Of a DNA stretch of 64,000 nt, positions 39,530 to 57,793 are shown one piece after another (within the stretch, counting starts at the first letter, position 1; every line of letters starts with the position of its first letter). The stretch is from Filomicrobium sp. (GTDB lineage: Bacteria; Pseudomonadota; Alphaproteobacteria; Rhizobiales; Hyphomicrobiaceae), in assembly GCA_017792465.1 (NCBI GenBank), contig CP051234.1:2296606-2360605 (forward strand), written 5' to 3'. Made by a program: the position numbers and the translations under genes. A model generated the notes under the pieces. That model saw only the letters and a program-made list of their open reading frames with translations, had not been told where the DNA came from and made no database searches.

Positions 39530-39692
39530 CGATCTCCTCATGTACTATCATGCAAAACGCCGTGCAGACGTTTTGTCAGTTCCGGACAAAGCCAGTTGGC
39601 GGATGATGCCGAGATCCAGCAACCGCATTGCGCACATGCACAAGATTTTTGTCACGGAGCGACGCGGAGTTGCCACATGTTTCTGCGCGCTC

Positions 39693-39719
39693 CGGATGCC
39701 CACCGCTTCGCGGCATCCG
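39693..39719. repeat. covarying stem-loop, family 1, CGGATGC/GCATCCG form
   Basis: CGGATGC (39693-39699) pairs with GCATCCG (39713-39719). Other CGGATGC copies: 39798-39834, 39965-40032 and 57451-57485. The family also has CGGGTGC/GCACCCG (54237-54256, 54423-54442) and CGGTTGC/GCAACCG (54190-54210, 56699-56719) forms. Imperfect copies are at 40060-40079 and 54838-54864. The flanks GCGC before and CGCGCC or GGGCC after are shared. Confidence 0.8.
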
Positions 39720-39857
39720 CGCTATGACAATTCTCCGCAGCCCCTGAGCTGGCCCTTCGGTTGCCCACTGCGCGCCCGAAGTTTTTCCTGCGCGCTTCGG
39801 ATGCCCACCGCTTCGGCTTCGCCTCGCGCATCCGCGCGCCGGACTATTCTCCGCAAT

Positions 39858-39950
39858 CGGTCCGAAGGACCGGGGAGCAAAGCGACCCGGCGTGAGCGCC
39901 GCCCCGTCGGAGTGGCCCGCGCTGAGAGCGCGGAACAGCCACGTGAGACA
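39858..39950. repeat. three-hairpin element, copy 1
   Basis: Hairpins: CGGTCC-GAA-GGACCG (39858-39872), CGGCG-TGAG-CGCCG (39888-39901) and CCGCGC-TGAGA-GCGCGG (39917-39933). It ends in AACAGCCACGTGAGACA. Copies 2 and 3 at 54279 and 56742 share sequence and order, with base changes that keep pairing. Confidence 0.8.
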
Positions 39951-39991
39951 TTATTTTAACGCTTCGGATGCCCACCGCTCAAACAATTTGG

Positions 39992-40016
39992 CGCACACTT
40001 CCTAAAGTCGTGTGCG
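39992..40016. repeat. TTCCTAAAGTC stem-loop, copy A
   Basis: CGCACAC (39992-39998) and GTGTGCG (40010-40016) enclose the loop TTCCTAAAGTC. The same loop, with CCACAC/GTGTGG-type arms, recurs at 54162-54186, 57603-57625 (inverted) and 63468-63492, and interrupted near 54740-54794. Confidence 0.8.
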
Positions 40017-40142
40017 GCTCGTGCGGCATCCGCGCGCCGGAAATTTTTCCTGCGCGCTTCAGGTGCCGACCCGCACCCGCGTAATGACAACTCTCCCCAG
40101 CCGCGCAGTTTCCCCTCGGTGCCACTGTCTGACCGGGTTCCA

Positions 40143-40175
40143 AATAGAAAACGGCACGCGCGGTAGGCGCATGCC
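40143..40175 (-). terminator. rho-independent terminator of dapD
   Basis: On the - strand, GGCATGCGC (40175-40167) and GCGCGTGCC (40161-40153) pair over nine bases (one T-G) with a five-base loop, followed by GTTTTCTATT. It lies 37 bases after the dapD stop codon. Confidence 0.78.
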
Positions 40176-40211
40176 GATTCCTCCGATAGTTCTGGTGCTA
40201 GGCGCTCGACC

Positions 40212-41072
40212 TTAATCGCGCAGCAGTTCGTTGATGCCGGTTTTGGAGCGCGTTTTTTCATCGACCGTTTTGACGATGACAGCGCAGTAGAGGCTTGGGC
40301 CAGGGGTACCGTCCGGCAGTGGCTTGCCAGGCATCGCACCGGGCACGACCACCGAATAGGGCGGTACGCGGCCCATGTGCACTTCGCCTGTCGCACGGTC
40401 GACGATCTTGGTGGATGCACCGATATAAACGCCCATAGACAAGACCGAACCTTCGCAAACGATGACGCCCTCAGCGACCTCGGCACGGGCACCGATGAAG
40501 CAGTTGTCTTCGATGATGACTGGGCCGGCCTGCAGCGGCTCTAGCACCCCGCCAATACCGGCGCCGCCGGAGAGGTGGACGTTCTTGCCGATCTGCGCGC
40601 AGGAGCCGACGGTGGCCCAGGTATCGACCATGGTGCCGCTATCGACATATGCGCCGAGGTTAACGAACGAGGGCATCAGCACGACGCCTGGAGCGATGAA
40701 GGCGGAATGGCGAACGACGGCGCCGGGAACAGCGCGGAAACCGGCTTCCTTGAATTGCTCGGGCTGCCACTCATCGAATTTTAGAGGGACCTTATCCCAG
40801 CCGTGCACGCGGCTGGCGTAGGTGCCGGACTTCTGGAACGGAATGATGACGTTGTCGGAGAGCCGGAACGACAACAGGACGGCCTTTTTCGCCCACTGGT
40901 TCACAACCCACTCACCGGCATCGTTTTTCTCGGCGACCCGGACCTTGCCAGAATCCATCAGGTTGAGCGCCGTCTCGACAGCATCCCGAACCGGCCCCTT
41001 GGTGCCCGTATTGACGGTGTCGCGCGCTTCGAAGGCTTCCTCGATGGTCTTGATCAGATCGGCGTGGCTCAT
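40212..41072 (-). CDS. dapD: tetrahydrodipicolinate N-succinyltransferase
   Basis: A 286-residue left-handed beta-helix acyltransferase that succinylates tetrahydrodipicolinate in lysine and meso-diaminopimelate synthesis. The N-terminal helical domain ([39 protein letters not shown]) leads into hexapeptide repeats ([52 protein letters not shown]). The motifs and length match DapD. It belongs to the same route as dapE and lysA in this window, though each is in a separate unit. Confidence 0.95.
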
Positions 41073-41298
41073 CTTTTTGGCGTTCCAATTGCTTTGTTGA
41101 TCGTTTCAGACACGGCTTGTCGCCTCTTGGAGAGGTCAAGTCAATGTTCTGAAGGGATCCACTTTGCTCCCCACCGGTTGGAAACATTTGGAGGCTGAAA
41201 CTGGGCGCGGGCGGACGCTCAGCAGCTGAGAACGTGATATTCCTGCCAAGAACTAACGGCAGAGTACTGCCAATTCGATGCGAGCCAGAGGCTGAAAA

Positions 41299-41667
41299 AT
41301 GGCAACAGAACGGTCTTTAAGTTACTCATTCATCGCGGCACTGGGGGCGACGGTCGGTGTGTTCGCATGGTCGCTTGTGCTGGTCGTGGTCGAGCTGATG
41401 GCGGCCTTGCTGACCTATTTCTACCTCTCCATTTTCCAGCGGGAATGGTTCGGGTCGCTCATCGGCTTTTCGCGGGAGGTTTTGAACTTCTGCATCGGCC
41501 AGCTGGAACTGTGGTTTCCGGCCTTTACCAACCAAGCCAACGCGACGCTCATCGGCGAATTGGCGCCAAAATCAATGCTTTTGCTGCTGATCGGGCTCGT
41601 TGTCGGCGCGCTGATCCGGGCCCTGTTTTGGGTTGCCAGCCGCACCTACCATGCGCTTGCGGGCTAA
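41299..41667 (+). CDS. three-helix membrane protein, unknown function
   Basis: A 122-residue protein with GAGG seven bases before the ATG. Hydrophobic segments lie at about residues 8-42 (long, perhaps two helices) and 90-113 (SMLLLLIGLVVGALIRALFWVA). The polar middle (45-88) includes several aromatic residues. It is convergent with the tlpA gene. No family was recognised. Confidence 0.65.
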   Translation: MATERSLSYSFIAALGATVGVFAWSLVLVVVELMAALLTYFYLSIFQREWFGSLIGFSREVLNFCIGQLELWFPAFTNQANATLIGELAPKSMLLLLIGLVVGALIRALFWVASRTYHALAG

Positions 41668-41710
41668 AGATCGAGACGGAAGCGGCAGGTTTCTGCTCAC
41701 GTGACCGGCG

Positions 41711-42367
41711 CTATTCCAGTTCGGCGATGATCAGCTTTTTTGCTTCTTCGCTGTCCCACTCTGCGGGGCCGACGAGACGGCCGATTTCGCGGCCCTCAGG
41801 GTCGATGAGCAGCGTTGTCGGCATGCCGATGATGCGCAACGGCTTGGACGACTTGCCAGACTTGTCGACGTAGGTTGCCAGCGACGAGACCTTGATCTGC
41901 TCAAAGAAGCGCTTCGAGGCTTCAACCCCGCCACGATCGACGCTGAGGGCCACAACCTCGAATTTGTCGCCGCCCAATTCGGCCTGAAGGCGGTCGAGGG
42001 CCGGCATTTCCTTGCGGCAAGGCGTGCACCAGGTGGCCCACATGTTGAGCAGGACGGTCTTGCCTTTGAAGTCGGCGAGCGTCTTTTCCTTGCCGTCGGC
42101 GTCAGTGAAAGTGATTTCAGGAAGGTCTGAGGGTTCAGGTCGGCGAATAAAGGCGGCCAGCCCGCTTTTGGAGTTGTCGGCGGCCGGGCCAACCGAGCTA
42201 TCAACCGTTTCGGCACCAATTCGCGTCACGGCGTTGTCAGGTGGGGCGCCAGTAAAGTATACCGCGCCAAGTCCGATCAGGACGAGCGATGACGCGATCC
42301 AAGCGTACATGGACGGAGACATTCTCCAAGATTGGCTGCGAACTTCTTGCTGCCTATGCGAAGTCAT
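41711..42367 (-). CDS. tlpA: TlpA-family thiol:disulfide oxidoreductase, membrane-anchored
   Basis: A 218-residue protein with an N-terminal membrane anchor (about 18-40, MYAWIASSLVLIGLGAVYF) and a periplasmic thioredoxin domain. The active site is WCTPC, in LLNMWATWCTPCRKEMPALD; the cis-proline loop is RIIGMPTTLLID. Such proteins keep periplasmic cysteines reduced, for example for cytochrome oxidase assembly. It is divergent from argH, an arrangement conserved in Hyphomicrobiales. An internal ATG 15 codons downstream is a possible start. Confidence 0.9.
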   Translation of the reverse strand: MTSHRQQEVRSQSWRMSPSMYAWIASSLVLIGLGAVYFTGAPPDNAVTRIGAETVDSSVGPAADNSKSGLAAFIRRPEPSDLPEITFTDADGKEKTLADFKGKTVLLNMWATWCTPCRKEMPALDRLQAELGGDKFEVVALSVDRGGVEASKRFFEQIKVSSLATYVDKSGKSSKPLRIIGMPTTLLIDPEGREIGRLVGPAEWDSEEAKKLIIAELE

Positions 42368-42468
42368 CGTTTCGTATTACCTGGACTGTTGATCCCAAAT
42401 TCGCCGTCAGACGGGCGCGATCATAATTCCGCACCGACGATGCGCCATGCAAACTGGAGCACAAAGCC

Positions 42469-43878
42469 GTGACCGAAAAAGACGCCAACCAAATGTGGGG
42501 CGGCCGCTTCCAAATGTCACCTGCCGAAATCATGGAAGTCATTAACGCATCCATAGATTTCGACAAGCGCATGGCGCGAGAAGATATTGCTGGGTCGCGC
42601 GCGCATGCCGAGATGCTGGCCGCTTCCGGTATTATAACGCAGGATGACCGGGCTGCGATTGATAAAGGTTTGGTCCAGATCCAGTCGGAAATCGAAGCCG
42701 GAACGTTCCAGTATTCGCGTGCGCTGGAAGATGTGCACATGAATATCGAGGCGCGGCTGAAAGAAATTGTCGGGGAAGCCGCAGGCCGCCTGCACACGGC
42801 AAGATCACGCAACGATCAGGTTGCCACCGACTTCCGGCTTTACGTTCGGGCGCAAATCGATGAATTTGACGCGGCGCTTGCCAAGTTGCAGTTCGCACTT
42901 GCGAAAAAGGCGCTGGTCAACGCCGCTACCGTCATGCCCGGTTTCACGCATCTGCAGCCGGCCCAGCCGGTGACGTTCGGGCACCATTTGCTGGCCTATG
43001 TCGAGATGTTTGGGCGGGACCGTGGGCGTTTCCAGGATGCGCGCAAGCGGCTTAACGAATGCCCGCTGGGGGCGGCCGCGCTCGCAGGCACGTCATTTCC
43101 GATCGATCGCGAGAAAACCGCCAAGGCGCTTGGGTTCGACCGGCCGACGGCGAATTCGCTCGATTCAGTCTCAGACCGGGATTTCGTTATTGAGACGCTG
43201 GCCGCGGCGTCGCTGTGCGCCGTCCATATTTCCCGGTTCTCCGAAGAGATCGTCCTGTGGGTGACCCCACAATTCGGCTTCCTGAAGCTTTCCGACAGGT
43301 TCACGACCGGCTCTTCGATCATGCCGCAGAAGCGCAATCCGGATGCTGCCGAGCTGTGCCGGGCGAAGGTCGGGCGGATCGCGGGGGCGATGCAAAGTCT
43401 GATGATGGTCATAAAAGGGCTGCCGCTGGCCTATTCAAAGGACATGCAGGAAGACAAGGAAGTCGCGTTTGACGCGCTCGACAGCCTGCGCGTGGCGGTT
43501 TCGGCGCTTTCGGGCATGGTCGATGACATGGAGCCCGTCGCCGAAAACATGCAAAAGGCGGCCGGATATGGCTTTTCAACAGCCACCGACCTTGCGGACT
43601 GGCTGGTTCGCGAACTCAAGATGCCGTTCCGTCAGGCGCATCACGTGACCGGCTCAATCGTCGCGGCGGCCGAAAAACGCGGGGTTGACCTGGGCGAACT
43701 GCCGCTCAAAGCCATGCAGGAGGTCGAGCCGAGCATCAATGACAGCGTCTTTAGCGTGCTCAGCGTCGAAAACTCGGTGGCCAGCCGCACCAGCTATGGT
43801 GGAACCGCGCCACACAATGTGGAGAAAATGGCCAAGCGCTGGATCGCACAGTTGGACAGCGAGGTCGCCGGGGGCTAA
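42469..43878 (+). CDS. argH: argininosuccinate lyase
   Basis: A 469-residue enzyme of the fumarase/aspartase superfamily that cleaves argininosuccinate to arginine and fumarate. Signature [12 protein letters not shown] lies near 283-294, with [18 protein letters not shown] near 108 and [13 protein letters not shown] near 162. It starts with GTG, with GGAG about ten bases upstream. It is the first gene of argH-lptM-lysA. Confidence 0.95.
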
Positions 43879-43978
43879 GTCTGGGTTTAAAGCTGCGGTC
43901 TGCCGAGTGAGTTATTGCCCGGCGGGCCAGAGGATTGGTGTTTCCGGCTTCCGATCCGAAAGCGAACAGCATCCGAGG

Positions 43979-44200
43979 ATGATACTGAAGCGCATGTCGA
44001 GCGTTGCCAAAACCTTCTTTCTCGCGACCCTTCTGGCGGTAACGCTGGCAGGCTGCGGCGTGCGCGGTTCGCTGGAAGCGCCAGCTCAGGCCAAGGCCGA
44101 AGGTACGGCGGCTTCGCCTGATTCCAAAGGCAGCGCCAAAGGAACAGCGGGCCCCAAGAAACAGCACCGGCCTTTCGTTCTCGACAGCCTCTTGCGCTAA
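43979..44200 (+). CDS. lptM: small LptM-like lipoprotein
   Basis: A 73-residue protein with a lipoprotein signal: FFLATLLAVTLAGC ends in the LAGC lipobox, so the mature protein is acylated at cysteine 22. The tail GVRGSLEAPAQ continues the conserved CGxxGxLxxP-type motif of LptM (YifL), which stabilises the LptDE lipopolysaccharide translocon in enterobacteria. Start at 43979 or five codons later (43994). Location between argH and lysA matches the family in alphaproteobacteria. Confidence 0.75.
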   Translation: MILKRMSSVAKTFFLATLLAVTLAGCGVRGSLEAPAQAKAEGTAASPDSKGSAKGTAGPKKQHRPFVLDSLLR

Positions 44201-44230
44201 CGCGGTCTCCTTCCCTGGACGCGGGCATCT

Positions 44231-44268
44231 GCGCTAAACGCAATCTCACGCGCTAAACGCAATCTGGC
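44231..44268. repeat. tandem 19-bp repeat before lysA
   Basis: GCGCTAAACGCAATCT occurs twice in a row (44231 and 44250), at a 19-base spacing, 69-106 bases upstream of the lysA start. Confidence 0.7.
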
Positions 44269-44336
44269 GCTTTCTTTTCCACATCGGCTGAGGCAACCTG
44301 CGGCTTCGCTTCAGGACTGACCGAATAACGACATCC

Positions 44337-45605
44337 ATGCATCACTTCTCTTACAAAGCCGGCGTGCTTCACGCTGAAGACGTCGACCTGTCGAGCCTTG
44401 CGGCGAGCGTCGGGACCCCGTTCTATTGCTATTCTTCGGCAACGCTTGAGCATCACTACCGCGTTCTGAGCGAGGCATTTCGCGACCTTAACGCGCTAAT
44501 TTGCTTCGCCGTCAAAGCCAATTCGAACCAGGCGGTTTTGGCGACGCTGGGCGCGCAAGGCGCCGGGATGGACGTCGTCTCCGAGGGTGAACTCCGGCGC
44601 GCGCGGGCAGTCGGTGTTCCGGCCAACAAAATCATTTTTGCGGGTGTGGGCAAAACCCGAGAAGAGATGGCTTATGCTCTCGGCGAGGGCATTTTGGGTT
44701 TCAACGTCGAGAGCGAGCCGGAGCTTTTGGCGCTCAGTTCCGTTGCCAGCGAGCTGGGCAAGGCCGCGCCGATCGCGATCCGCGTCAATCCGGATGTCGA
44801 TGCCAAGACGCATGCGAAAATCTCGACCGGCAAGTCGGAGAACAAGTTCGGTGTGCCCTATGTCGACGCGCGGGCGCTCTATCAGAAGGCGCGCGAGCTG
44901 CCAGGCATCGATATCGCCGGCATCCATATGCATATCGGCAGCCAGATCACCGATCTGAGCCCGATGCGGTCGGCGTTCACGCTGCTGGCGGATCTTGCCA
45001 AAGACCTGATGAGCGACGGCATCGCCTTGCGCCATCTCGATCTGGGCGGCGGGCTCGGCATCCCCTATGACGCGACTGCGCCGATGCCGCCGTCGCCGGA
45101 AGATTACGCCGGGGTCGTTCGCGACTGCTTGGGCGATCTCGGTCTGAAAGTCGTCCTCGAGCCAGGCCGGATGATTGCCGGCAACGCCGGGATCCTGGTG
45201 ACGCGGGTCATCCACGTCAAAGAGGGCGCCGACAAGACGTTCCTTATCGTCGACGCGGCGATGAACGATCTGATCCGGCCGACGCTTTATGAAGCGCATC
45301 ACGATATCTGGCCGGTCGCCCAGGAGCTGCGCTCGATGCCGCCCGTTGTCCAGGACGTTGTCGGGCCGGTGTGCGAAACCGGAGATTATCTGGCGCTCGA
45401 CCGGTCGCTGCCGCCGTTCAGCGAAGGCGGGCTTATGGCGGTGATGTCGGCTGGTGCTTACGGATCTGTGATGGCCTCGACCTACAACAGCCGATTGCTG
45501 ATCACCGAAGTCATGGTTCATGGTGAGGAATTTGCCGTCATCCGGCCGCGGCCGACGTATGAGGATCTGATCGCTCAGGACCGGCTGCCGAAGTGGCTTG
45601 GGTGA
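44337..45605 (+). CDS. lysA: diaminopimelate decarboxylase
   Basis: A 422-residue fold-type III PLP enzyme that makes lysine from meso-diaminopimelate. Seen: the PLP lysine in CFAVKANSNQ, HMHIGSQITD, the LDLGGGLGIPY phosphate loop, VLEPGRMIAGNAG and the C-terminal GPVCETGDYLALDRSLPP with the active-site cysteine. Length is standard. It is followed by the TIGR02302 gene, a linkage common in Hyphomicrobiales. Confidence 0.95.
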   Translation: MHHFSYKAGVLHAEDVDLSSLAASVGTPFYCYSSATLEHHYRVLSEAFRDLNALICFAVKANSNQAVLATLGAQGAGMDVVSEGELRRARAVGVPANKIIFAGVGKTREEMAYALGEGILGFNVESEPELLALSSVASELGKAAPIAIRVNPDVDAKTHAKISTGKSENKFGVPYVDARALYQKARELPGIDIAGIHMHIGSQITDLSPMRSAFTLLADLAKDLMSDGIALRHLDLGGGLGIPYDATAPMPPSPEDYAGVVRDCLGDLGLKVVLEPGRMIAGNAGILVTRVIHVKEGADKTFLIVDAAMNDLIRPTLYEAHHDIWPVAQELRSMPPVVQDVVGPVCETGDYLALDRSLPPFSEGGLMAVMSAGAYGSVMASTYNSRLLITEVMVHGEEFAVIRPRPTYEDLIAQDRLPKWLG

Positions 45606-45750
45606 GGCACGGGCTGATCGATCCAAGCTGCGCTGGTCGAGTTGGTCAAAGGCGGAATCGATTGGCCTCAATCCCTTTGAAACACATCGTGAACAAAAGC
45701 CTTCCGAAATTTGAGGATTGTCGGCTCAGCGTCGTGCTAATATCGGGCCC

Positions 45751-48411
45751 ATGACAGATGTTCGCCCTAGCAAGACCGGCGGGGCCCGTTCGCATGCAGA
45801 ACGCGCCATGGCCGACCAGGCTCTCGAAAAGAAAATCGAACGCAGCCTGTGGATGCTGTTTCTCGAACGGCTTTGGCCGCGACTTTGGCTGGTAGTCGGG
45901 GTCGTTGGGCTATTCGTAGCCTTTTCGATGCTGGGCTTGTGGCCCGTCATCGGCGATCTGCCGCAGAAAATTTTGCTGGGTGCATTCGGCGTTGCGCTGG
46001 TTGCTGCTCTCATTTGGGCGCTACGCACGCCATGGCCAGGTCGCGACCAAGGTATCCGGCGTCTGGAACGGTTGTCAGGACTGCCGCATCGGCCCGCCTC
46101 TTCCTACGACGACACGTTGAGCGCTGGCTCTGACGATCCGGCGACGCGCGCGATCTGGGTTGCGCATCGCAAGCGGCTGTCTGACCTGCTTGGACGGCTG
46201 CGCGTTGCAGGTCCGCGTCCTGACACGCCCCGGCATGACCCATGGGCGTTGCGCGCCGGGCTGTTGGTTGGCGTTACGGCGCTGACGGCGCTGGCGGGCG
46301 ATCACTGGTCGGACCGGCTGGCGGCTGCCTTCCGATTTGCGGACCCGATCACGGCGGCTTCCCGGTTGAGGATCGACGCCTGGGTGACGCCGCCGGCCTA
46401 TACCGGCAAGCCCCCGGTGCTGCTGGCTGATGGCGGGCGTGATGGCGATGGCAAAGCGACGGCCGCCGTCGCCGATGGTCTTGTCGAAATCCCGCAAGGC
46501 AGTGAGCTTATCGTGCGTGCCAGTGGCGAAGCCGCCGGCGGATTGCGCCTCGACATCATGGATTCAAACGGGCCGACGCACAGCATCGCCTCAGAGGCTG
46601 CCAAGACGCCGGGCGGTGTCGTCGAAGATATCGCCGAAGTGCGAACGACGCTGAAAACCTCGGCCCGCGTTTTGCTGATGCACGATACCACCCAGGTCGA
46701 TGCGTGGACGTTCTCGGTGACGCCGGACCAAGTCCCGACGATCGAGTTGACCAAGACGCCGAAGCCATCACAGCGCGGCTCGATGAAGCTCGAATACAAG
46801 ATCGGAGATGACTACGGCGTTGCTTCGGCGCGGGTGAAAATCGTCAAGGCGGCCAAGGAAGAACAGGACCCGGCGACGGCCTGGGCGCGCAAAGACGTGC
46901 TCAAAGGCCCGCGTCTGCCGTTGTCGCGCCCGCCCGAACTGAGCTTGCGGCTGCCCAAGACCAACGCGACCGAAGGGACTTCGGTGACGCATCTGGAGCT
47001 GGGCTCGCATCCCTGGGCGGGCCTCAACGTCGTCATGACGCTTGAAGCGACTGACGGGGCGGGCCAAGTCGGCAGTTCCAAGCCAATCGAGATGGAATTG
47101 CCGCAACGGGTTTTCCGTAAGCCGTTGGCGCGCGCGGTCATCGAACAACGCCGTCAGCTTGTCGACGATTCACGGTATCGCAATCAGGTCGTTACAGCGC
47201 TCGATGCGCTGACGCTGGCGCCGGAAGGCTTCATCGACGACGTGCAGGTTTATCTGGGGCTGAGGACCGCGTCTTATCGCTTGCAGCGCGATTTCACCAA
47301 GCCCGGTCTCGACAGCGTCGTCGAGCAGCTTTGGAATGTTGCGTTACGCATCGAAGATGGCGATCTGAGCGATGCCGAACGCCGCTTGCGTGAGGCGCAA
47401 GACAAGCTTGCCAAGCTCTTGGAGCAAGGCGCCTCGGATCAGGAGATCCAGGATGCGATGCAGGAGCTTAAGACCGCGCTCAACGAATATCTGCAGCAGA
47501 TGGCGCGCGAAGCCAAAAACAATCCGACGATGCCCGATGGGCAGAACTCGCAGCAACAGCAATTGAGCCAGCAAGACCTCGACCGGATGATGAAGCAGAT
47601 CGAGGAAATGGCTAAAAGCGGGGCGCGCGATGCTGCGCAGCAGATGCTGAGCGAGCTGCGCGACCTCCTCGACCGGCTGCAATCTGCCGAACAGCAAAAC
47701 GCTCAAGGTCAGCAAAGCCAGCAGATGATGGAGATGATGAGCGAGCTGGGCGATATCGTCGGGCAGCAGCAAAGGCTGATGGACGATACGTTTTCTGAGC
47801 AGCGCCAAGAGGGACAGCAAGGGCAACAAGGCCAGCAGGGTCAGCAAGGGCAAATGCCGCAACGCGGTCCGCAAAGCGGTCAGCGCGGACCTCAGCAAGG
47901 GCAGGGCCAGCCGCAGCAAGGCCAAGGCAAAGGCAAAGGTCAGATGGGCAAGGGCCAGCTTGGTTCTCGTCAGCGCGAGTTGCGCAACCGGCTCGGCCAG
48001 CTGCAGCGTGATATGCAGGGTAACGGCATGGGCCAGCCCGACCAGATCACTGAAGCGCAGGAAGCGATGCGCAACGCCGAGCGCGCGCTGCAAGACGGCG
48101 ATCTTGAAGGCGCGATGCAGGAGCAATCACGGGCGCTCGATCAGCTGCGCAAAGGCGCGCAGCAAATGGCGCAGCAGATGATGCAGAATATGCCGCGCCG
48201 TTACGGTCAGAACGGCGATTCACCGCGCGATCCACTCGGCCGGCCGCAACGTTCGCAAGGCCCTGACCAGGGCACGTCCGTCAAGGTTCCCGATGAGATC
48301 GATACGCAGCGCGCACGCGAGCTTCTGAACGAACTGCGCCGCAGGCTTGGTGATGCACAGCGCCCGACCGAGGAACTAGAGTACCTGGAGCGCCTGCTTC
48401 AGTTCTATTGA
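45751..48411 (+). CDS. TIGR02302/DUF4175-family membrane protein
   Basis: An 886-residue protein with two transmembrane helices near 35-80 and a third hydrophobic stretch near 165-180, then a large periplasmic or cytoplasmic domain, and a C-terminal helical tail. From about residue 600 the sequence is Gln-rich; about 685-735 it is almost only Gln and Gly (GQQGQQGQQGQMPQRGPQ). This matches TIGR02302, long alphaproteobacterial proteins with low-complexity ends, usually beside lysA. Function is unknown. An upstream TTG (45718) with GAGGA close by is a possible alternative start. Confidence 0.88.
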   Translation: MTDVRPSKTGGARSHAERAMADQALEKKIERSLWMLFLERLWPRLWLVVGVVGLFVAFSMLGLWPVIGDLPQKILLGAFGVALVAALIWALRTPWPGRDQGIRRLERLSGLPHRPASSYDDTLSAGSDDPATRAIWVAHRKRLSDLLGRLRVAGPRPDTPRHDPWALRAGLLVGVTALTALAGDHWSDRLAAAFRFADPITAASRLRIDAWVTPPAYTGKPPVLLADGGRDGDGKATAAVADGLVEIPQGSELIVRASGEAAGGLRLDIMDSNGPTHSIASEAAKTPGGVVEDIAEVRTTLKTSARVLLMHDTTQVDAWTFSVTPDQVPTIELTKTPKPSQRGSMKLEYKIGDDYGVASARVKIVKAAKEEQDPATAWARKDVLKGPRLPLSRPPELSLRLPKTNATEGTSVTHLELGSHPWAGLNVVMTLEATDGAGQVGSSKPIEMELPQRVFRKPLARAVIEQRRQLVDDSRYRNQVVTALDALTLAPEGFIDDVQVYLGLRTASYRLQRDFTKPGLDSVVEQLWNVALRIEDGDLSDAERRLREAQDKLAKLLEQGASDQEIQDAMQELKTALNEYLQQMAREAKNNPTMPDGQNSQQQQLSQQDLDRMMKQIEEMAKSGARDAAQQMLSELRDLLDRLQSAEQQNAQGQQSQQMMEMMSELGDIVGQQQRLMDDTFSEQRQEGQQGQQGQQGQQGQMPQRGPQSGQRGPQQGQGQPQQGQGKGKGQMGKGQLGSRQRELRNRLGQLQRDMQGNGMGQPDQITEAQEAMRNAERALQDGDLEGAMQEQSRALDQLRKGAQQMAQQMMQNMPRRYGQNGDSPRDPLGRPQRSQGPDQGTSVKVPDEIDTQRARELLNELRRRLGDAQRPTEELEYLERLLQFY

Positions 48412-48862
48412 TACCGAAATCGGGCAAACGGGGAAGCGTTGCGCCTCGTCCTGCGAAAAATTACGGCGCCGGAAACGCCTCTTTGTACGCTAGAGCACAT
48501 TGATGGCCGGCAGGTGCCCGGCATTATCGCTGTTTTGGCCACAGCTCTTTAGCCAATCGCGGCATGGCGCTTTCGCATCGATTGACGCGTCGCCAAAGCT
48601 TTGTAGATTTGCGCCAGTGTCGTGGGGCCAATGCCAACGCGTTGCGGTAAATCAGCGGACAAGCAGACTTAAACCACCGCTGCGAGGCTTCGTCGTTAAG
48701 CCCGCCAAGCGTTCCAGACAGACAATTTAGGAACTGCCTTTTTGGGGCACCTGCTCCAATTGGCCGGGGTTTTATTGCTGTAGGACAAGGACGGGGGGCT
48801 TCAACGGCTATACGACCTGTTCGCACGAGGTTATCTCACTGCGACAGCACTAAGGTTGGGTA
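48412..48862. other. 451-bp intergenic region before the LysR gene
   Basis: No convincing gene was seen. Short frames of 76 and 100 codons overlap on opposite strands and look random. A weak GGCG-CGCC hairpin with TCTTTG near 48468-48485 may end the TIGR02302 transcript, and GCCGG-CAGGTG-CCGGC lies near 48514. Confidence 0.4.
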
Positions 48863-49936: not shown

Positions 49937-50047
49937 TGCGAAATTGGGGCCACTTGGCCAGACGCCCTGAATTGCCGAATATCAATCCAGTCCTCGCCCC
50001 CCGCCGCAAGATGGCGACGGGCTGCTTGAGGAGCGATAGCCTCAGAA

Positions 50048-51469: not shown

Positions 51470-51580
51470 CTTGGCACCCTTTCACTGTGCGGCAGTCCTG
51501 CGATGCAAGGGCTACTGACCCTAGCCCATTGATTGCATCGCGAAAGGACATCGCAGAGACGTAGAGCGCCGTCCCTTGCG

Positions 51581-52444
51581 TTATTTGCCGGTTATAGTTT
51601 TGACAACGCTTGCAAGCGGCTTTGCGTTGGCTGCTCCCGTCCCACCGAATTCCTTCTTAATTTGCTCGTCGTAGGCAGCGAGCGACGTGGCCGGTGACTT
51701 AGCAGTCAAATGGACCACCTTGAAGCCTTTTTTCTTCAGCTCGTTCAATAGCTTCGGCATCGCTTTGGCGGTTGCCTTCTGGAAGTCGTGCATCAAGATG
51801 ATGCCTTTGCCCTTCTTGGTGATCTTCGACATCACTGTCTTCACGACCCTATCGGGATTGCGGTGTTTGAAATCGAAGGAATCAACATCCATCGAGAAGA
51901 TCGCAACATTGCGGCTGCCCAGGTAGCTGACGGCGTCTTTGGGGTCTTGCAGGTAAGGAAAGCGGAAAAACGGCGATGGAGCAGCACCGAGTGCGAATTT
52001 CACGCCACTCAAGCCCTTCTCGATCTCGGCGCGGCCGGCTTCTCCAGCCATCTTCTTTTTACCTAGGTTGGCGTGGGAGAATGTGTGGGTGCCGATCGTA
52101 TGACCTTCGGCGGCGACCTTTTTCAGGATCAGCGGGTGCCAAAGCGCATGTTTGCCGATGGTAAAGAACGTGGCTTTGGTGCAGTGGTCTTTCAAAGCAT
52201 TCAACACGGCCTCGGTATTGTGCGGCCATGGGCCGTCGTCGAAGGTCAGCACGACTTCTCCAGGCTGCAGGAAATCGTAGATCTTGTACTGTTCAAGACC
52301 GAAGGCCGGCCCGCCAGTCGTATCGATTTCCACCGTGCGGCCGACGCCGAGAGCATTCGGATTGCCGGGGCATTCCTCGGATAGCGCAGGCGATGCGAAG
52401 GCAAGCCCTGCGAGTGCGGCGGCGAGCATGGTACGGATCGACAT
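51581..52444 (-). CDS. secreted polysaccharide deacetylase (NodB family)
   Basis: A 287-residue protein with a signal peptide (about 1-22, ending PALS) and a NodB carbohydrate-esterase domain: VVLTFDDGPWPHNTEAV (catalytic Asp and metal Asp), GTHTFSHANLG (metal His pair), FRFPYLQDPKD and GIILMHDFQKAT. It probably removes acetyl groups from peptidoglycan or an exopolysaccharide in the periplasm. The ATG at 52444 follows AGGAGG six bases upstream. It lies beside a lytic transglycosylase-like gene, giving a small envelope cluster. Confidence 0.92.
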   Translation of the reverse strand: MSIRTMLAAALAGLAFASPALSEECPGNPNALGVGRTVEIDTTGGPAFGLEQYKIYDFLQPGEVVLTFDDGPWPHNTEAVLNALKDHCTKATFFTIGKHALWHPLILKKVAAEGHTIGTHTFSHANLGKKKMAGEAGRAEIEKGLSGVKFALGAAPSPFFRFPYLQDPKDAVSYLGSRNVAIFSMDVDSFDFKHRNPDRVVKTVMSKITKKGKGIILMHDFQKATAKAMPKLLNELKKKGFKVVHLTAKSPATSLAAYDEQIKKEFGGTGAANAKPLASVVKTITGK

Positions 52445-52689
52445 TGGTTGCCTCCTGATTGCGACTGACGTCACACTTTGGGTTTCCGGTCCGGCGGAAC
52501 AAGTTCTGCAGACTTTGCCGTGATTCTGTCTGGGCGGATAATGGGCTCTTGCAACCTTAGAGTTCAAGCCCCTCGGCGGCGAACTTCCCGAAAACGCTGT
52601 TCATGTCGCTTCGAGGGCTCACAAGACTGCGGCTGGGTGAGTGTTTCCGGACGCAGGCGGTGCGAACTCCGGTTTTGCTCAACGTCTGG

Positions 52690-53508
52690 CTAACGGGCTC
52701 GCGCGAGTTTCCGTTTGCGCAACGCCAGCCACTTGCGGCAGCTCGGGCGGGCGAGATTGCAGCGGATTTTGATTTTCGGGCCGGCCGTCTTGTTACGCCG
52801 CGCCTTCGCGCTCCAATTTCCCAAGTCGGTCAAGACTTTCGAGCGGTCCATTGCGATCTCGCGATTGGCACGGGCGATGATATCGCTGGCGGACATCGCG
52901 CTCATGAACGGATTGGCGCGTATGGCAGCTGGAGATATCAAGCGGCGCAGCGGCGTCTTGGGAGTTGCCTTGAGGACTTTGGTCGCGCCATTGGGACCGA
53001 GCAGGTAGGCGAGGCGCAAATGGCCATAGGTGGCTTTGAGCTCGTTGCGGATGAGATGGGCGGCGAGTTCGCGGCTATATTGCGCAATGACCTTTCGGGA
53101 GAAGGCGCGGTTGGTGCGCAAAGCGAGGATTTCAGCTTCGCTTTTGTCGGGGATTTCATCGATGAAGTGCCGGCGGACAACGTACAGAAACGTACCCTTG
53201 ATGAACTGAAAGGGCCCGAGCGCGGTTGAGCGCGGGTTTTTCAGATAATCCCGGCCATCGGATTCGGCCATCATGAGGCGGTCGAGATAGGTCTCAAAAT
53301 CGGCGTTGCCGCGCTTCATTTTAGTTGCATCAGCTTGCTTTTGCGCAATGGAGGCTGGCTTGAGCTTGGGCTTTTCGAGGCTCAACGCACCATCGGGCGA
53401 TGCAGTGGCGAAGGCCAGGCAGACGAGCCCGAACGCCCGCCAATGCCAATTTCGCTGGCCCGTTCGGCCAGTCCTTTGAGGTGAACGGATCAGTAAACGT
53501 TTTCCCAT
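52690..53508 (-). CDS. lytic transglycosylase-like (SLT) protein
   Basis: A 272-residue protein. A hydrophobic segment near 24-42 may be a signal sequence. The SLT-like motif FETYLDRLMMAESDGRDYLK with the catalytic glutamate (MAESDG), then STALGPFQFIKGTFL, lies at about 71-105. The remainder is helical and strongly basic (RRNKTAGPKIKIRC, final KWLALRKRKLARAR), which suggests binding to an acidic surface. The usual second lysozyme-fold motifs are not all visible, so activity is unproven. Confidence 0.78.
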   Translation of the reverse strand: MGKRLLIRSPQRTGRTGQRNWHWRAFGLVCLAFATASPDGALSLEKPKLKPASIAQKQADATKMKRGNADFETYLDRLMMAESDGRDYLKNPRSTALGPFQFIKGTFLYVVRRHFIDEIPDKSEAEILALRTNRAFSRKVIAQYSRELAAHLIRNELKATYGHLRLAYLLGPNGATKVLKATPKTPLRRLISPAAIRANPFMSAMSASDIIARANREIAMDRSKVLTDLGNWSAKARRNKTAGPKIKIRCNLARPSCRKWLALRKRKLARAR

Positions 53509-53731
53509 GGCGCTAAATTAACCGGATGCGGGAAAGTTTGCTCGCCCCTTGCTTGAAAAATCACTCTCATAATTTCAGTGTTAATCGCAGTTTCAGAGCC
53601 AAAATCGACGCCGATCAAGCCAAAATCTGGGTCTTGTTACGTCTGGAACAGACCTGCTCGCGCCTCGGAGCTAACTTCACCTCATCAAACGGACGGGCCG
53701 GGACGGCCACAAACTCAATGGGAGACCAACC

Positions 53732-54007
53732 ATGACAACCAACATGATCAACACCGCAATCTTCGCCGGCGCTGCAGCCGCCGTTGCAGTTCTCGCTTTC
53801 GCCGCCACCGACGCCGAAGCCGGCAATGGCCGTGAAATCTACCAGAAGTCTTACACCTTCGATAAGCCGATGCACGGTTACGAAGGCCACGCCGACCGCA
53901 ACTACTACTGCACCTACAAGCGCTTCCCGATCCGGAAGTGCAAATACAAAAACGGTCGTGAAGTCTGCAAGGTCGTGAAGTGGGAACTTGAGCAGACCTG
54001 CTACTGA
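53732..54007 (+). CDS. small secreted protein, unknown function
   Basis: A 91-residue protein with GGGAG nine bases before the ATG. Residues 1-30 form a signal peptide (IFAGAAAAVAVLAFAATDAEA). The mature part is basic and aromatic with four cysteines (YYCTYK, RKCKYK, EVCKVV, QTCY), which could form two disulfides. A strong terminator lies about 100 bases downstream. It resembles the small cysteine-bearing protein at 92-364 in size and export, but not clearly in sequence. Confidence 0.75.
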   Translation: MTTNMINTAIFAGAAAAVAVLAFAATDAEAGNGREIYQKSYTFDKPMHGYEGHADRNYYCTYKRFPIRKCKYKNGREVCKVVKWELEQTCY

Positions 54008-54110
54008 TCTTCCATCCAAAGCGCAGAGCGCCCTTCTTAGCGGATGCGGCGCCGCGCTCCCCTAAAATTTTACTTGTTTGACTATCGTTTTGCTCCCCTC
54101 GAGCCAAACT

Positions 54111-54142
54111 GGCCCCGGAACCTTCTCCCGGGGCCTTTTTTT
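54111..54142 (+). terminator. rho-independent terminator of the 53732 gene
   Basis: GGCCCCGG (54111-54118) pairs with CCGGGGCC (54128-54135), followed by seven T. It marks the start of the repeat-rich gap. Confidence 0.9.
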
Positions 54143-54161
54143 CTTGGCGCGCTTGTTCGTG

Positions 54162-54186
54162 CCCACACTTCCTAAAGTCGTGCGGG
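54162..54186. repeat. TTCCTAAAGTC stem-loop, copy B
   Basis: CCCACAC...GTGCGGG arms around TTCCTAAAGTC, with one A-C mismatch. It is followed at 54190-54210 by a CGGTTGC/GCAACCG copy of the covarying stem-loop. Confidence 0.75.
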
Positions 54187-54236
54187 GCTCGGTTGCCCAC
54201 TTGGCAACCGGGCCATGACATTTTTTTCTGCGCCTT

Positions 54237-54256
54237 CGGGTGCCGACCAGCACCCG
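54237..54256. repeat. covarying stem-loop, family 1, CGGGTGC/GCACCCG form
   Basis: CGGGTGC and GCACCCG enclose CGACCA. An identical copy is at 54423-54442. Compared with the CGGATGC/GCATCCG copies, the A-T pair has become G-C on both arms. Confidence 0.8.
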
Positions 54257-54278
54257 GCGCCGTACTATTCTCTGCAAT

Positions 54279-54406
54279 CGGCCCGGAGGGTCGGGGAGCA
54301 AGGCGACCTGGCGTGAGCGCCGCCCCGTCGGAGCGGCTCGCGCGCTGTGTGGATGCGAGTGGGCATCTGGAACACGACCAAGGAGCGCAGAACAGCCGCG
54401 TGAGAT
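54279..54406. repeat. three-hairpin element, copy 2, with an enlarged third hairpin
   Basis: CGGCCC-GGA-GGGTCG (54279-54293) and TGGCG-TGAG-CGCCG (54309-54322) match copies 1 and 3. The third hairpin region is longer (about 54335-54390). It ends in AACAGCCGCGTGAGA, as in the other copies. Confidence 0.75.
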
Positions 54407-54508
54407 ATCTTTGCTGCGCCTTCGGGTGCCGACCAGCACCCGGCGCCGGATAATTCTCCGCAATCGGCCCGAAGAGCAATCTTGTTCGCCAGTGCCAGAT
54501 ATCAACAT

Positions 54509-54616
54509 GTCATCCCAGGCTTTATGCCTGGGATCCATCGTGATGCGAATGCTGGAGTTCTCCTAAATACTCGACCATGCCGCGCTCTGGGTCCCAGGGA
54601 CAAGCCCTGGGATGAC
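54509..54616. repeat. 108-bp GTCATCCCAGG element, copy 1
   Basis: It begins GTCATCCCAGG and ends CCTGGGATGAC, exact inverted ends. Inside are ATCCCAGGC-TTTAT-GCCTGGGAT and CCCAGGG-ACAAG-CCCTGGG hairpins. A second copy of the same length is at 56922-57029, differing mostly in the middle. Confidence 0.85.
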
Positions 54617-54684
54617 AGGAGGGCGGGTGATTGAAAGCGTTGGCAGACACGATCCGTAGCATTTCCAATTGGCGCTTCGTTCGT

Positions 54685-54707
54685 CAACACTGCGCAAGCT
54701 TGTGTTG
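54685..54707. repeat. 23-bp AACAC...GTGTT palindromic repeat
   Basis: CAACACTGCGCAAG followed by CTTGTGTTG. An identical copy lies at 54753-54775; two related copies lie at 36541-36560 and 36578-36598. Confidence 0.85.
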
Positions 54708-54739
54708 AGCTACGATGCCCACCGCTCTCTCTTTGCCGA

Positions 54740-54794
54740 CACTTCCTTTGCGCAACACTGCGCAAGCTTGTGTTGCCGTCCTAAAGTCGTGTGG
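54740..54794. repeat. TTCCTAAAGTC stem-loop interrupted by a 23-bp repeat
   Basis: CACTTCC (54740-54746) and TCCTAAAGTCGTGTGGG (54778-54794) are the two parts of the stem-loop seen intact elsewhere. Between them lies TTTGCG, the 23-bp repeat at 54753-54775, and CCG. TCC is present on both sides of the insert. Confidence 0.7.
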
Positions 54795-54915
54795 GATGGT
54801 CGCGGCAACCGGCGCCGTGCATTTTCCATTCGCGCTTCGAATGCCCACGCCTTCGGCGCATCCGCGCGCCGGACAACCAGCCATAATCGGCCCATTGATG
54901 ATTTCTAACTGGTTC

Positions 54916-55020
54916 GTCATCCCCGCGTAGGCGGGGATCCGTACACGTGCAGGCCTTGGCAATAGGGTTTTCACTTTGCATCATCTTGGATAGATCCCCG
55001 ACCAAGTCGGGGATTACGAC
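54916..55020. repeat. 105-bp GTCATCCCCGC element
   Basis: It begins GTCATCCCCGCGTAGGCGGGGATCC and ends GATCCCCGACCAAGTCGGGG then ATTACGAC when read in two blocks. Both ends are hairpins. It is a relative of the 108-bp elements with a different stem sequence, and belongs to a class of GTCATCCC repeats widespread in proteobacteria. Confidence 0.75.
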
Positions 55021-55073
55021 AAAGGGGCCGGCATCCGATTCCGCTCGGGCTGGAAATGATCTATCCTTGCCTC

Positions 55074-55424
55074 ATGACCGATGAACTCGATCTCGAGCAT
55101 TTCCGTGGACGGCTGCTGGCGCGACGAGACGAACTACAAGCGCTGCAGTCGATGAGTTCGGGCAGTCGCGATGCGGTTGAACTCGACCAGACCAGCGTCG
55201 GTCGCGTATCGCGGATCGATGCCATTCAGCAGCAGCAAATGGCACTTGCCTCGCAGCGCCAGCGCGAGGAAGAACTGGTACGTATCGATGCCGCGCTTCA
55301 GCGCATCGAAGATGGGTCTTATGGTGAGTGTCTAATCTGCGAGGAACCCATCGCGATCAAAAGGCTCGAATTCGATCCGGCGATCGCGACGTGCGTGACA
55401 TGCGCTGCGCAACGCAGCCGATAG
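55074..55424 (+). CDS. TraR/DksA-type C4 zinc-finger protein
   Basis: A 116-residue protein from the second of two possible ATGs (55056 is the other). The N-terminal two thirds is a helical hairpin (LDLEHFRGRLLARRDELQAL, LDQTSVGRVSRIDAIQQQQM) and the C-terminus is the zinc finger CLICEEPI...CVTCAAQ with four cysteines. The coiled coil tip lacks an obvious DxxDxA motif, so it may not act on RNA polymerase in the DksA manner. It is preceded by the repeat-rich gap and stands alone. Confidence 0.88.
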   Translation: MTDELDLEHFRGRLLARRDELQALQSMSSGSRDAVELDQTSVGRVSRIDAIQQQQMALASQRQREEELVRIDAALQRIEDGSYGECLICEEPIAIKRLEFDPAIATCVTCAAQRSR

Positions 55425-55604
55425 GCCAGCCTCTGCGAAACCACCAAGCCTTTAACCCTAGCCGCATTCGCGCCGCTAACGATGTTGCGCTGGAGACATG
55501 CAGTGCGCGCCCTTTTTGCTATTCTCTCGATTGAAGCATCGCGCCGCGTGACGTTTCCTGATCCTGCCTGCACCCCAACAGCGAACCCAAAGAGGATTGA
55601 GACG

Positions 55605-56666
55605 GTGAGCCTGTTTGAGAAACCGCCTGAAGAGTTCCCCTTCTCCGCCGACGTCAAATCCCGGCCCGCGCATTACCAGATTAAGTCGTGCCCATCGGAC
55701 TGGGGATCTATCTTGATCGTCGCGGGAATGTGGGCGTTGGTCGGGTCGTTCCTCACTTTGCTCATCATCGGGACGGTGGTTGTGGAGAGTCTGGGCCTCG
55801 GCGCTTACGAGCCATTGGTTTCGATTGGCATCGTCGTTGTCTTCCTGGCCTGCGTCGTCTGGTACTACCTGCCCGAATTGCTCGACAATATGCGCACGGT
55901 CGATGTGACGATCGCAGACGACGAAGTTTCAGTCCGGGTGACGTCGCCGCTTGGCGAAAAATCCTGGAGCGATCCGCTGTCGGTCTACCAAGGCGTGGCG
56001 CAGCTCGATCACGGCATGCAGGATCTCGGTGGCTCCAAGGCGATAATCGGCAGCGTTGTCCTGAAGCATCCCGACCCCAAGAAGTCAGTGCCGCTTACCA
56101 TTCGTGCGCAGAAGGACCTGGGCAAGAAAACTGTCAAGCGTTTTGCCGAGCAGCTCGGCGTGCCAGCACTCGAAGGCATCGGCGATGACAGCGGCGACAA
56201 GGCGCTGCCGGAAGGCACGTTGCTGGTCAACACGCGCCAGAGCCTCATTCTCAAATTGTTCTACTGGGGTTGCGTGATTGTGGCCGTTGGGCTTGGAATG
56301 GTGACCGGTTACAAGGTGTTCTTCGATGGCGGCGATCCGGCGCTTCTATCACTGCCTCTCGTCTTCGGCGTCACGGCGTGGCTCTTGAGAATGTATTCGT
56401 CGATTTACGTGACGGCGATGCGCGAATGGCAGGGCGAGATCTGGCTGCGCTGCGACGCGATCTCGAATTACGAATACCGCTTCAAGCCGGGCGAGATCAA
56501 TATGGCCAGCCGCAACGAAGGCAAGTCGAGCTACGTCTCGCGTCAGCAAGTGCACACGCCCTACATCACGATGGGCGTCAAAGGCCGCAAGCTTCCGTTC
56601 ATCCTCGACCTGCAGGGCGATTACGTGAACGAGAAAGAGGTCTACCGGTTGGCGCGGAGAAGGTAG
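55605..56666 (+). CDS. four-helix membrane protein, unknown function
   Basis: A 353-residue protein from a GTG with AGAGGA eight bases upstream. Two helices lie near 36-58 and 72-90 (WGSILIVAGMWALVGSFLTLLIIG), a globular segment with beta character follows (VTIADDEVSVRV), then two helices near 222-244 and 250-270, and a C-terminal domain (AISNYEYRFKPGEINMASRN). The paired helix/globular layout suggests an internal duplication. No known family was identified. Confidence 0.7.
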   Translation: MSLFEKPPEEFPFSADVKSRPAHYQIKSCPSDWGSILIVAGMWALVGSFLTLLIIGTVVVESLGLGAYEPLVSIGIVVVFLACVVWYYLPELLDNMRTVDVTIADDEVSVRVTSPLGEKSWSDPLSVYQGVAQLDHGMQDLGGSKAIIGSVVLKHPDPKKSVPLTIRAQKDLGKKTVKRFAEQLGVPALEGIGDDSGDKALPEGTLLVNTRQSLILKLFYWGCVIVAVGLGMVTGYKVFFDGGDPALLSLPLVFGVTAWLLRMYSSIYVTAMREWQGEIWLRCDAISNYEYRFKPGEINMASRNEGKSSYVSRQQVHTPYITMGVKGRKLPFILDLQGDYVNEKEVYRLARRR

Positions 56667-56741
56667 TTATTTCGATCAAAAGTTTTTAGTGGACCCTTCG
56701 GTTGCCCACCCGGCAACCGGGCCATGACAACCAGCCATCAT

Positions 56742-56833
56742 CGGCCCGAAGGGCCGCGGGAGCAAGGCGACCCGCTGCTTGCAGCGCCTGTCGGAGCGGC
56801 CCGCGCGTCAGCGCGGAACAGCCGCGTGAGACA
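56742..56833. repeat. three-hairpin element, copy 3
   Basis: Hairpins CGGCCC-GAA-GGGCCG (56742-56756), CGCTG-CTTG-CAGCG (56773-56786) and CCGCGC-GTCA-GCGCGG (56801-56816). The second stem differs from copies 1 and 2 on both arms but still pairs. A covarying stem-loop (56699-56719, CGGTTGC/GCAACCG) precedes it. Confidence 0.8.
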
Positions 56834-56921
56834 TATTAGTGGGCGCTTCGATTGCCCAATGCCAACCGCGCCATGACAATTCTCCATGAGGGCATTGCTT
56901 GCGACTGACGCAACTCTAATT

Positions 56922-57029
56922 GTCATCCCAGGCTTTATGCCTGGGATCCAGCGCAATGCAAAGTTCTGGGTTCTCCAAGATATTCGACCGTGCCGCGCCC
57001 TGGGTCCCAGGGACAAGCCCTGGGATGAC
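56922..57029. repeat. 108-bp GTCATCCCAGG element, copy 2
   Basis: Same length and same ends as copy 1 at 54509-54616. The terminal hairpins are nearly identical, while the central 40 bases differ more. Confidence 0.85.
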
Positions 57030-57037
57030 AGGGAAGA

Positions 57038-57361
57038 TTATCTCGGAAGCTCGCCGCATTTGCCGGGGTGGGCGAGGGGCTGTTTGGCGGCACGGCGACC
57101 GCAGTCATTGGAATAGGTCTTCCCGTTGCAGCCGCAGACGGGCTTGTACTCGCGGGTGCAGATTTTCGTTGAGCGCGCGCACTTGCCGAGCGTCGCCGGA
57201 GTGATCGCGCCGCAAATGCCGGCTGGCGGATCGCACCATAGTCCCTCGCCGCAGGCGTTCTCGTCGATCACGGCGCAGACGTCACCGACCGTTGCTGCGT
57301 AGCCGGGGACGGCGGTGAGGGCGAGGATTGCGGAGGTGAGGATGAGGGCGAAACTGCGCAA
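57038..57361 (-). CDS. secreted protein with a Kazal-type domain
   Basis: A 107-residue protein with a signal peptide ending PGYA. The C-terminal half fits a Kazal serine-protease-inhibitor domain: YKPVCGCNGKTYSNDCGRRAA, with flanking KICTRE and HPGKC cysteines in the Kazal spacing. The N-terminal half (CAVIDENACGEGLWCDPPAG) is a second small disulfide-rich segment. In animals such domains block trypsin-like proteases. Bacterial examples are few, and the target here is unknown. It lies between two repeat-bearing gaps. Confidence 0.8.
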   Translation of the reverse strand: MRSFALILTSAILALTAVPGYAATVGDVCAVIDENACGEGLWCDPPAGICGAITPATLGKCARSTKICTREYKPVCGCNGKTYSNDCGRRAAKQPLAHPGKCGELPR

Positions 57362-57602
57362 GACGGGGCTCCGGTCGGGTTGGCTGGTAGGGCTGGCAAC
57401 TTATCGCAGAGCGAGGGTTTGTCACGCGGGCTCTTTTTTCTTGCGCGCTCCGGATGCCCATGGCTCCCGTTGGTCGCCGCATCCGCGCGCCTGACAACCA
57501 GCCATCTATGGGCCGACTAGCCGATGGGGCCAAGAAAAAGCTGGCTGCATCGATCTCAAACCCTGCGGAGGATAGTACGGCGCCGGATGCGCGAGGCATG
57601 CT

Positions 57603-57625
57603 CCACACGACTTTAGGACGTGTGG
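57603..57625. repeat. TTCCTAAAGTC stem-loop, inverted copy D
   Basis: CCACAC (57603-57608), loop GACTTTAGGAC, GTGTGG (57620-57625), a perfect six-base-pair stem. It is the reverse-complement orientation of the copies at 39992, 54162 and 63468. Confidence 0.85.
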
Positions 57626-57687
57626 ACGGATAATGCCGAAGCGTGGGCATCCGAAGGCGTAACGAAAAAGCACAGAGGTTTGCCCAC

Positions 57688-57777: not shown

Positions 57778-57793
57778 CGGGGAGTGGAGGGGA

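Follow-up and report, generated by a model that had tools for sequence, protein, structure and literature searches.

Short palindromes of the GTAG and CGTC super-families, the repetitive extragenic palindromes (REP), occur in many extragenic copies, mainly behind genes and in several stem and loop subtypes per genome, and those of the CGTC type seemingly have no dedicated transposase (part of PMC3733652). The IS200/IS605 and TnpA-REP systems need single-stranded DNA, of which the lagging strand is an important source (part of PMC6006769). Here we analyse a family of hairpins of the general form CGGNTGC..GCANCCG, noticed in a 64,000-nucleotide stretch of DNA from Filomicrobium sp. (Hyphomicrobiaceae; assembly GCA_017792465.1, contig CP051234.1, positions 2,296,606 to 2,360,605), which is further called the window. 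Copies also lie outside the window, across the whole genome of this organism (G000).

The family is like REP of both super-families in being a short extragenic palindrome of many copies, placed mainly behind genes and divided into several stem and loop subtypes (compared with part of PMC3733652). Unlike REP, its consensus has neither a GTAG nor a CGTC foot and carries a CTT bulge, and its orientation is tied to GC skew; unlike REP, BIME (bacterial interspersed mosaic elements) and REPIN, its neighbouring copies stand head-to-tail and not inverted (47 of 51 neighbouring pairs less than 400 bases apart). It is thus REP-like in size, number and place but fails the tag and the inverted pairing. 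With TnpA-REP/RAYT (REP-associated tyrosine transposase) and IS200/IS605 it shares a bulged hairpin, and a lagging-strand source of single-stranded DNA would give the orientation observed; unlike them, it has no Y1 match in its own genome, no gene in the unit and no GTAG or GTGG in the consensus (compared with part of PMC6006769). The main text of PMC3733652 contains no occurrence of 'Hyphomicrobi', and no description of the family was recognised in open-licence literature on Hyphomicrobium repeats or on replication-oriented palindromic repeats.

We suggest, with a probability of about one half, that these hairpins are short REP-like elements, non-coding and non-autonomous, which form a family of the Hyphomicrobiaceae and are spread or retained via single-stranded DNA at replication forks. 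The hairpins form a family with a two-part stem with paired changes and with sharp ends, they are absent from the predicted genes of their own genome, and they are oriented along GC skew. The last feature is the strongest one, and it was not seen in the initial annotation of the window.

The own contig, 4.47 Mb long, was searched with a covariance model (R1, trained on 26 copies hand-picked from 47 candidates with at most two inner mismatches and from their neighbourhoods), which yielded 101 matches at E<=0.1; of 3772 first-look candidates, 150 were scored. On the plus strand, which is the G-rich one, lie 94 of these 101 matches, and two of the 7 on the minus strand are one place counted twice, in the overlapping contig ends. 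The exact pattern, which is independent of the model, is distributed 73 to 8 by orientation (2 and 3 for a reversed-pattern control), and a companion palindrome described below shows the same bias with 22 exact matches against 0, many of them within the hairpin clusters. GC skew, taken here as a proxy for replication direction, was positive in 38 of 43 stretches of the own chromosome, some of which were picked at elements. From the bias to the plus strand together with the positive skew it was therefore predicted that in relatives, whose contigs come in arbitrary orientation, the element strand should follow the local skew. With the elements masked before the skew was computed, the orientation agreed with the sign of local skew in 19 of 20 stretches of G003, which belongs to the same genus (p=4e-5; most of these stretches cover only one side of the element), in 8/10 of G008 (p=0.11), in 15/20 of G020 (p=0.04) and in 12/19 of G027 (p=0.36; counts for this genome vary by unit, with 14/21 clusters in another tally). 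Pooled over the four relatives, orientation follows skew in 54 of 69 stretches (p=2.6e-6, with stretches of the same contig not fully independent); L131, having no pattern match, was dropped.

The direction of transcription shows no such agreement. Agreement of orientation with the majority coding strand stays at chance (10/20 in G003, 4/10 in G008, 10/20 in G020, 9/19 in G027, 33/69 in total), and where coding and skew are in conflict, skew was followed 30 times and coding 9 times. In the own genome, the plus orientation is kept in 8 of 10 clusters flanked by two minus-strand genes. CGTC-like repeats, used as an orientation control, gave 20 against 33, a weak control because their inverted pairs cancel.

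The covariation of the stem, proposed initially from ten copies, was upheld genome-wide in the own genome and in relatives from two other genera. In the alignment of 90 own-genome matches, 94.2% of stem cells are paired against 78.6% in shuffles, and the covariation score is 0.327 against 0.085, a value reached by none of 500 shuffles, with a maximum of 0.067 in slid controls. These figures come from an alignment (A2) that is fitted to the model R1 and holds most of the training copies, which is why a count of the variable pair with anchors leaving it free is the cleaner measure. Out of 123 left anchors in the own genome, 34 were not followed by a right anchor in the next 100 bases; among the 89 counted, 73 variable pairs are Watson-Crick (33 A-T, 24 T-A, 16 G-C) and 16 are not. 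The same pair types occur in two genomes of other genera, with 58/62 paired in G027 (30 of 92 anchors dropped) and 28/36 in G020 (33 of 69 dropped). The fourth possible pair, CGGCTGC..GCAGCCG, was seen in 0/89 copies of G000, 0/62 of G027 and 1/36 of G020. All nine combinations of the outer types CGC/GCG, GCC/GGC and GCG/CGC with the three inner types occur paired, a combination being counted if at least two copies matched at all three outer pairs and at the variable one, and the changes are therefore not merely three frozen lineages. Two observations count against this: the loop class goes along with the variable pair, and a mismatch or gap is present in the outer stem of 22/90 copies and in the inner stem of 8/90. 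In the aligned copies the CCG of the right arm is invariant, whereas the CGG of the left arm differs in 25 letters, which suggests that the right arm may be recognised in addition to the fold; the weight of this invariance is limited by the training of R1 on copies with CCG-type right arms.

Along the element strand, the unit consists of TTTTTnnTTG, an outer arm, the unpaired CTT bulge, CGGNTGC, the loop, GCANCCG, the second outer arm and about 13 conserved bases. The left-foot consensus TTTTTnnTTG rests on 83, and the right-foot consensus [CA]TGACAATTCTCC on 88, of the 90 own-genome copies, and no unpaired GTAG or CGTC tag was found at either foot in the consensus of aligned copies. Conservation begins abruptly at a distance of 13 bases ahead of CTT and is lost gradually some 17 bases past the inner right arm. 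The shared flanks noted earlier are real, and the conserved part is longer than was described; short-loop model matches have units of 47-65 bases. Single-strand DNA folds were predicted for seven window copies and both strands. For the element strand the prediction is two stems and a bulge of 3 nt in 4/7, a bulge of 5 nt in 2/7 (39680 and 40047) and another fold in 1/7 (54825), and z-scores of the 14 folds range from -0.77 to -4.03. Many long loops contain the second, companion palindrome (..CACTTCCTAAAGTCGTG..), and a third palindrome (CAACACTGCGCAAGCTTGTGTTG) breaks some left arms; at 54753-54775 this third palindrome lies within a companion palindrome with TCCT at each side, like an insertion with a 4-base repeat.

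In the window, a stem-loop of the family stands at each of the ten positions given in the initial annotation, with a complementary variable pair (A-T, G-C or T-A) in all ten, though the exact form CGGNTGC..GCANCCG that was claimed for all of them holds in only eight. The copies at 40060 (beginning CAGGTGC) and 54838 (CGAATGC) each have one A.C mismatch, which is a G.T wobble on the opposite strand. There are nine complementary CGGNTGC/GCANCCG pairs whose loops measure 3-70 bases, against a mean of 0.38 and a maximum of 3 in 100 first-order Markov randomisations of the window. One of the nine, at 57584, was absent from the earlier list; it is inverted relative to the other eight and has a loop of 56 bases. 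Degenerate copies at 39755 and 56846 had also been overlooked. The loops of exact copies, 6-56 bases, agree with the range stated before (6 to more than 50). The elements in the window are:

39680..39733, plus strand: hairpin unit, outer arm GCG/CGC, A-T type, 13-nt loop
39751..39777, plus strand: degenerate or truncated left half of a unit
39785..39849, plus strand: hairpin unit, outer arm GCGCG/CGCGC, A-T type, 23-nt loop
39850..39951, plus strand: structured linker ('tail') joining two hairpins
39952..40046, plus strand: hairpin unit, A-T type, 54-nt loop containing a second palindrome
39992..40016, plus strand: companion palindrome CGCACACTTCCTAAAGTCGTGTGCG within the loop of the 39952..40046 unit
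40047..40093, plus strand: hairpin unit, G-C type, 6-nt loop, CAG arm
54164..54184, plus strand: companion palindrome CACACTTCCTAAAGTCGTGCG
54185..54222, plus strand: hairpin with altered left flank, T-A type, 7-nt loop
54224..54270, plus strand: hairpin unit, outer CGC/GCG, G-C type, 6-nt loop
54271..54409, plus strand: structured linker joining two hairpins
54410..54456, plus strand: hairpin unit, outer CGC/GCG, G-C type, 6-nt loop
54685..54707, plus strand: third palindrome CAACACTGCGCAAGCTTGTGTTG, which breaks up the left arm of a unit
54753..54775, plus strand: third palindrome, second copy, within a companion palindrome
54825..54879, plus strand: hairpin unit, A-T type, CGA arm
56686..56733, plus strand: hairpin unit, GGCC-type outer arm with one change, T-A type, 7-nt loop
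56734..56835, plus strand: structured linker joining two hairpins
56836..56882, plus strand: degenerate hairpin unit (CGATTGC..CCAACCG)
57438..57500, plus strand: hairpin unit, outer GCGCG/CGCGC, A-T type, 21-nt loop
57570..57666, minus strand: minority-orientation hairpin unit, A-T type, 56-nt loop with a companion palindrome at 57603-57625

Hairpins are arranged in arrays and in composites, a nested organisation that had gone unmentioned, and two of them are often joined by a linker of mostly 102-216 bases. The linker is conserved and structured (GGGAGCAAGGCGACCC..GTCGGAGYGGCC..GCGGAACAGCCRCGTGAGACAT) at 39850-39951, 54271-54409 and 56734-56835; in an alignment of 11 copies 5 of its 21 predicted pairs change on both sides, with a covariation term of only -0.81. 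Some linker copies carry further palindromes in their loops. Tandem hairpin arrays with a period of about 32-78 bases were seen in G003 (contigs C117, C118 and C175) and G027 (C9 and C15), and G002:C234 has a tandem array with a 71-base period of a part resembling window positions 54675-54795.

Rfam gave for 39500-58000 five matches at E<=1, all under the gathering score and none on the hairpins, and for 56680-56890 eight matches at E<=10, again all under the gathering score and without a convincing match to the linker. Among the sub-gathering matches of 39500-58000, WsnRNA46 and FtrB fall on other repeats and asponA lies inside a gene. The other repeats, at 54509-54617, 54911-54940 and 56921-57030, are palindromes of the form (C)GTCATCCC..GGGAT, partly in inverted pairs, which resemble CGTC-type REPs and carry the weak WsnRNA46 and FtrB matches.

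Of the alternatives, the one that survives best, while still rather unlikely, is that the orientation itself is selected and the repeats serve as polar marks of the chromosome, in the manner of FtsK-orienting sequences (KOPS) or architecture-imparting sequences (AIMS). Both AIMS and KOPS are oriented along replication. The bias of our family also tracks GC skew and not genes, and the copies avoid genes and divergent gaps (15 clusters in convergent against 2 in divergent ones). AIMS, though, are 8-base sequences (part of PMC5993296), unlike this structured unit of at least 47 bases with a patchy presence. Among 103 genomes of the bacterial family, the pattern exceeds background in the own genus and a few others (g13, g20, g6 and part of g11), with counts that range from 0 to 95 per genome and from 0 to 81 within the own genus, and stays near background in many genera; 24 genomes from other families of the order have no excess (14 matches against 14 for the reversed pattern). 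G000, G003, G020, G027 and G070 are rich in pattern matches, and G001, G005 and G007 are poor in them. Such patchy counts weigh against a polar mark because a shared chromosome function would be expected to be more constant. Hairpins are present, among other named records, in Hyphomicrobium sp. bin.114, Hyphomicrobiaceae Bin_29_3 and Rhizobiales Ga0077537, and by-eye inspection of 26 database stretches found the right arm, intact or changed, in 12 and none in 13, L030 being too short; all 12 are Hyphomicrobiaceae, Hyphomicrobium, Rhizobiales/Hyphomicrobiales or alphaproteobacterial records. One orthologous spacer, 54009-55056, is also hairpin-free in relatives: no hairpin was seen by eye in G005, G006 and G008, where both flanks are present and the spacer is short, nor in the part covered for G003. 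From this comparison, which covers one place, the copies there seem to be particular to this lineage.

That the hairpins are RNA elements of 3' untranslated regions, terminators or mRNA stabilisers whose pairing is selected in RNA, is in our opinion unlikely, despite their placement. In the fetched own-genome stretches, 90 of the 101 model matches were examined against genes predicted with a purpose-made codon-usage caller trained on G000, and all 90 lie outside predicted genes, none overlapping a gene by more than 20 bases, which bears out the initial statement that the copies are intergenic. The gaps holding their 37 clusters are 15 convergent, 10 plus-plus, 10 minus-minus and 2 divergent, with at least one neighbouring 3' end at 35/37, and where the left neighbour is on the plus strand (25 clusters), the first unit begins within 20 bases past the stop codon in 11; the paired changes of the linker fit this reading too. 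The terminator reading is rated low because the orientation ignores the strand of genes and because, whichever strand is read, the consensus lacks a T-run immediately behind the stem. A further point against it comes from the gene that ends at 54007, which retains its own terminator ahead of the array; this terminator is conserved in the own genome, G005, G006, G008 and G003, and the own-genome array begins directly after it.

A quite improbable explanation is that these are classical REPs mobilised by a RAYT (Y1) transposase since lost from the own genome. The bulged hairpin, high copy number and extragenic position would suit it, and a Y1_Tnp match is present in 2 of 9 relatives searched (G002 and G003). 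The consensus without GTAG or CGTC foot and the head-to-tail neighbours do not, and no left-arm motif was found at three Y1 loci of relatives (1.8-3.2 kb each, partly at contig ends). The link to a RAYT proposed at first found no support: Pfam Y1_Tnp (PF01797) has 0 matches at E<=0.001 in G000, in a search whose control was positive in 5/14 genomes, and none in the copy-rich G020 and G027.

That the repeats are neutral remains, with paired changes made by arm-to-arm quasi-palindrome repair and a strand bias left by the history of few duplications, is hardly credible, for all that loop class goes with the variable pair, arrays are duplicates and chimeric mispaired copies occur (for instance L005:1656), as the coupling to skew recurs across separate genomes (54/69) and all nine stem combinations occur paired.

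We return to hairpins spread or retained via single-stranded DNA at the fork. The hairpin is nearly alike on both strands, and a fixed orientation therefore requires recognition of sequence on one of them. If GC skew marks replication direction, the G-rich element strand would be the lagging-strand template, and the bias to this strand, the independence of transcription, the patchy copy number, the sharp ends and the tandem growth together fit a handling of single-stranded DNA on that template. The element strand would be exposed there at the fork, where the hairpin may be recognised as single-stranded DNA by a putative enzyme that copies or moves it, slippage may yield the tandem arrays, and pairing may be retained because the folded single strand is the recognised form. 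The family would then behave as REP do, lying mostly behind genes, paired, multiplying into head-to-tail arrays and composites, with place and number dependent on the species. A more specific version, that these are mobile hairpins locked to the replication strand, with nested companion palindromes, and moved by a putative single-strand DNA enzyme other than Y1/RAYT, we hold to be doubtful.

A number of observations speak against this proposal. G008 and G027 taken alone are not significant and G020 is weak, and independence cannot be claimed for tandem arrays, nested palindromes or stretches of the same contig. Oddly, a clear change of skew sign is absent from the own chromosome. The ends of its contig G000:C1 overlap (17,455 checked bases, 100%, same strand), implying a circle of about 4,428,359 bp, and the missing two-replichore flip is due either to an assembly inversion of one half or to a chromosome replicated mainly one way; G007, the yardstick for skew, includes contigs of positive and of negative skew, and in its contig C8 the sign switches. 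The lack of a Y1 match in the own genome and in G020 and G027 counts here too. Unlike in the own genome, 12 of 32 G020 copies (L107-L126) fall within genes predicted by the caller trained on G000. The placement of the unit may reflect selection instead of an insertion mechanism. The complement strand is slightly more stable in 7/7 folded copies, by 0.2 to 3 kcal/mol, and the wobble cells favour it, with 23 A.C cells (G.T there) against 9 G.T on the element strand, an excess which is only suggestive because 13 of the 23 come from CAG arms. Fold and wobble data thus lean, if anything, to the complementary strand.

REP-like repeats are common, and how those without a RAYT spread is a question which this family makes testable. 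Repeats that are oriented by the replication strand, regardless of transcription, point to a substrate of single-stranded DNA at the fork. If this is true, such repeats could be used as natural markers of fork direction in genomes that are not closed.

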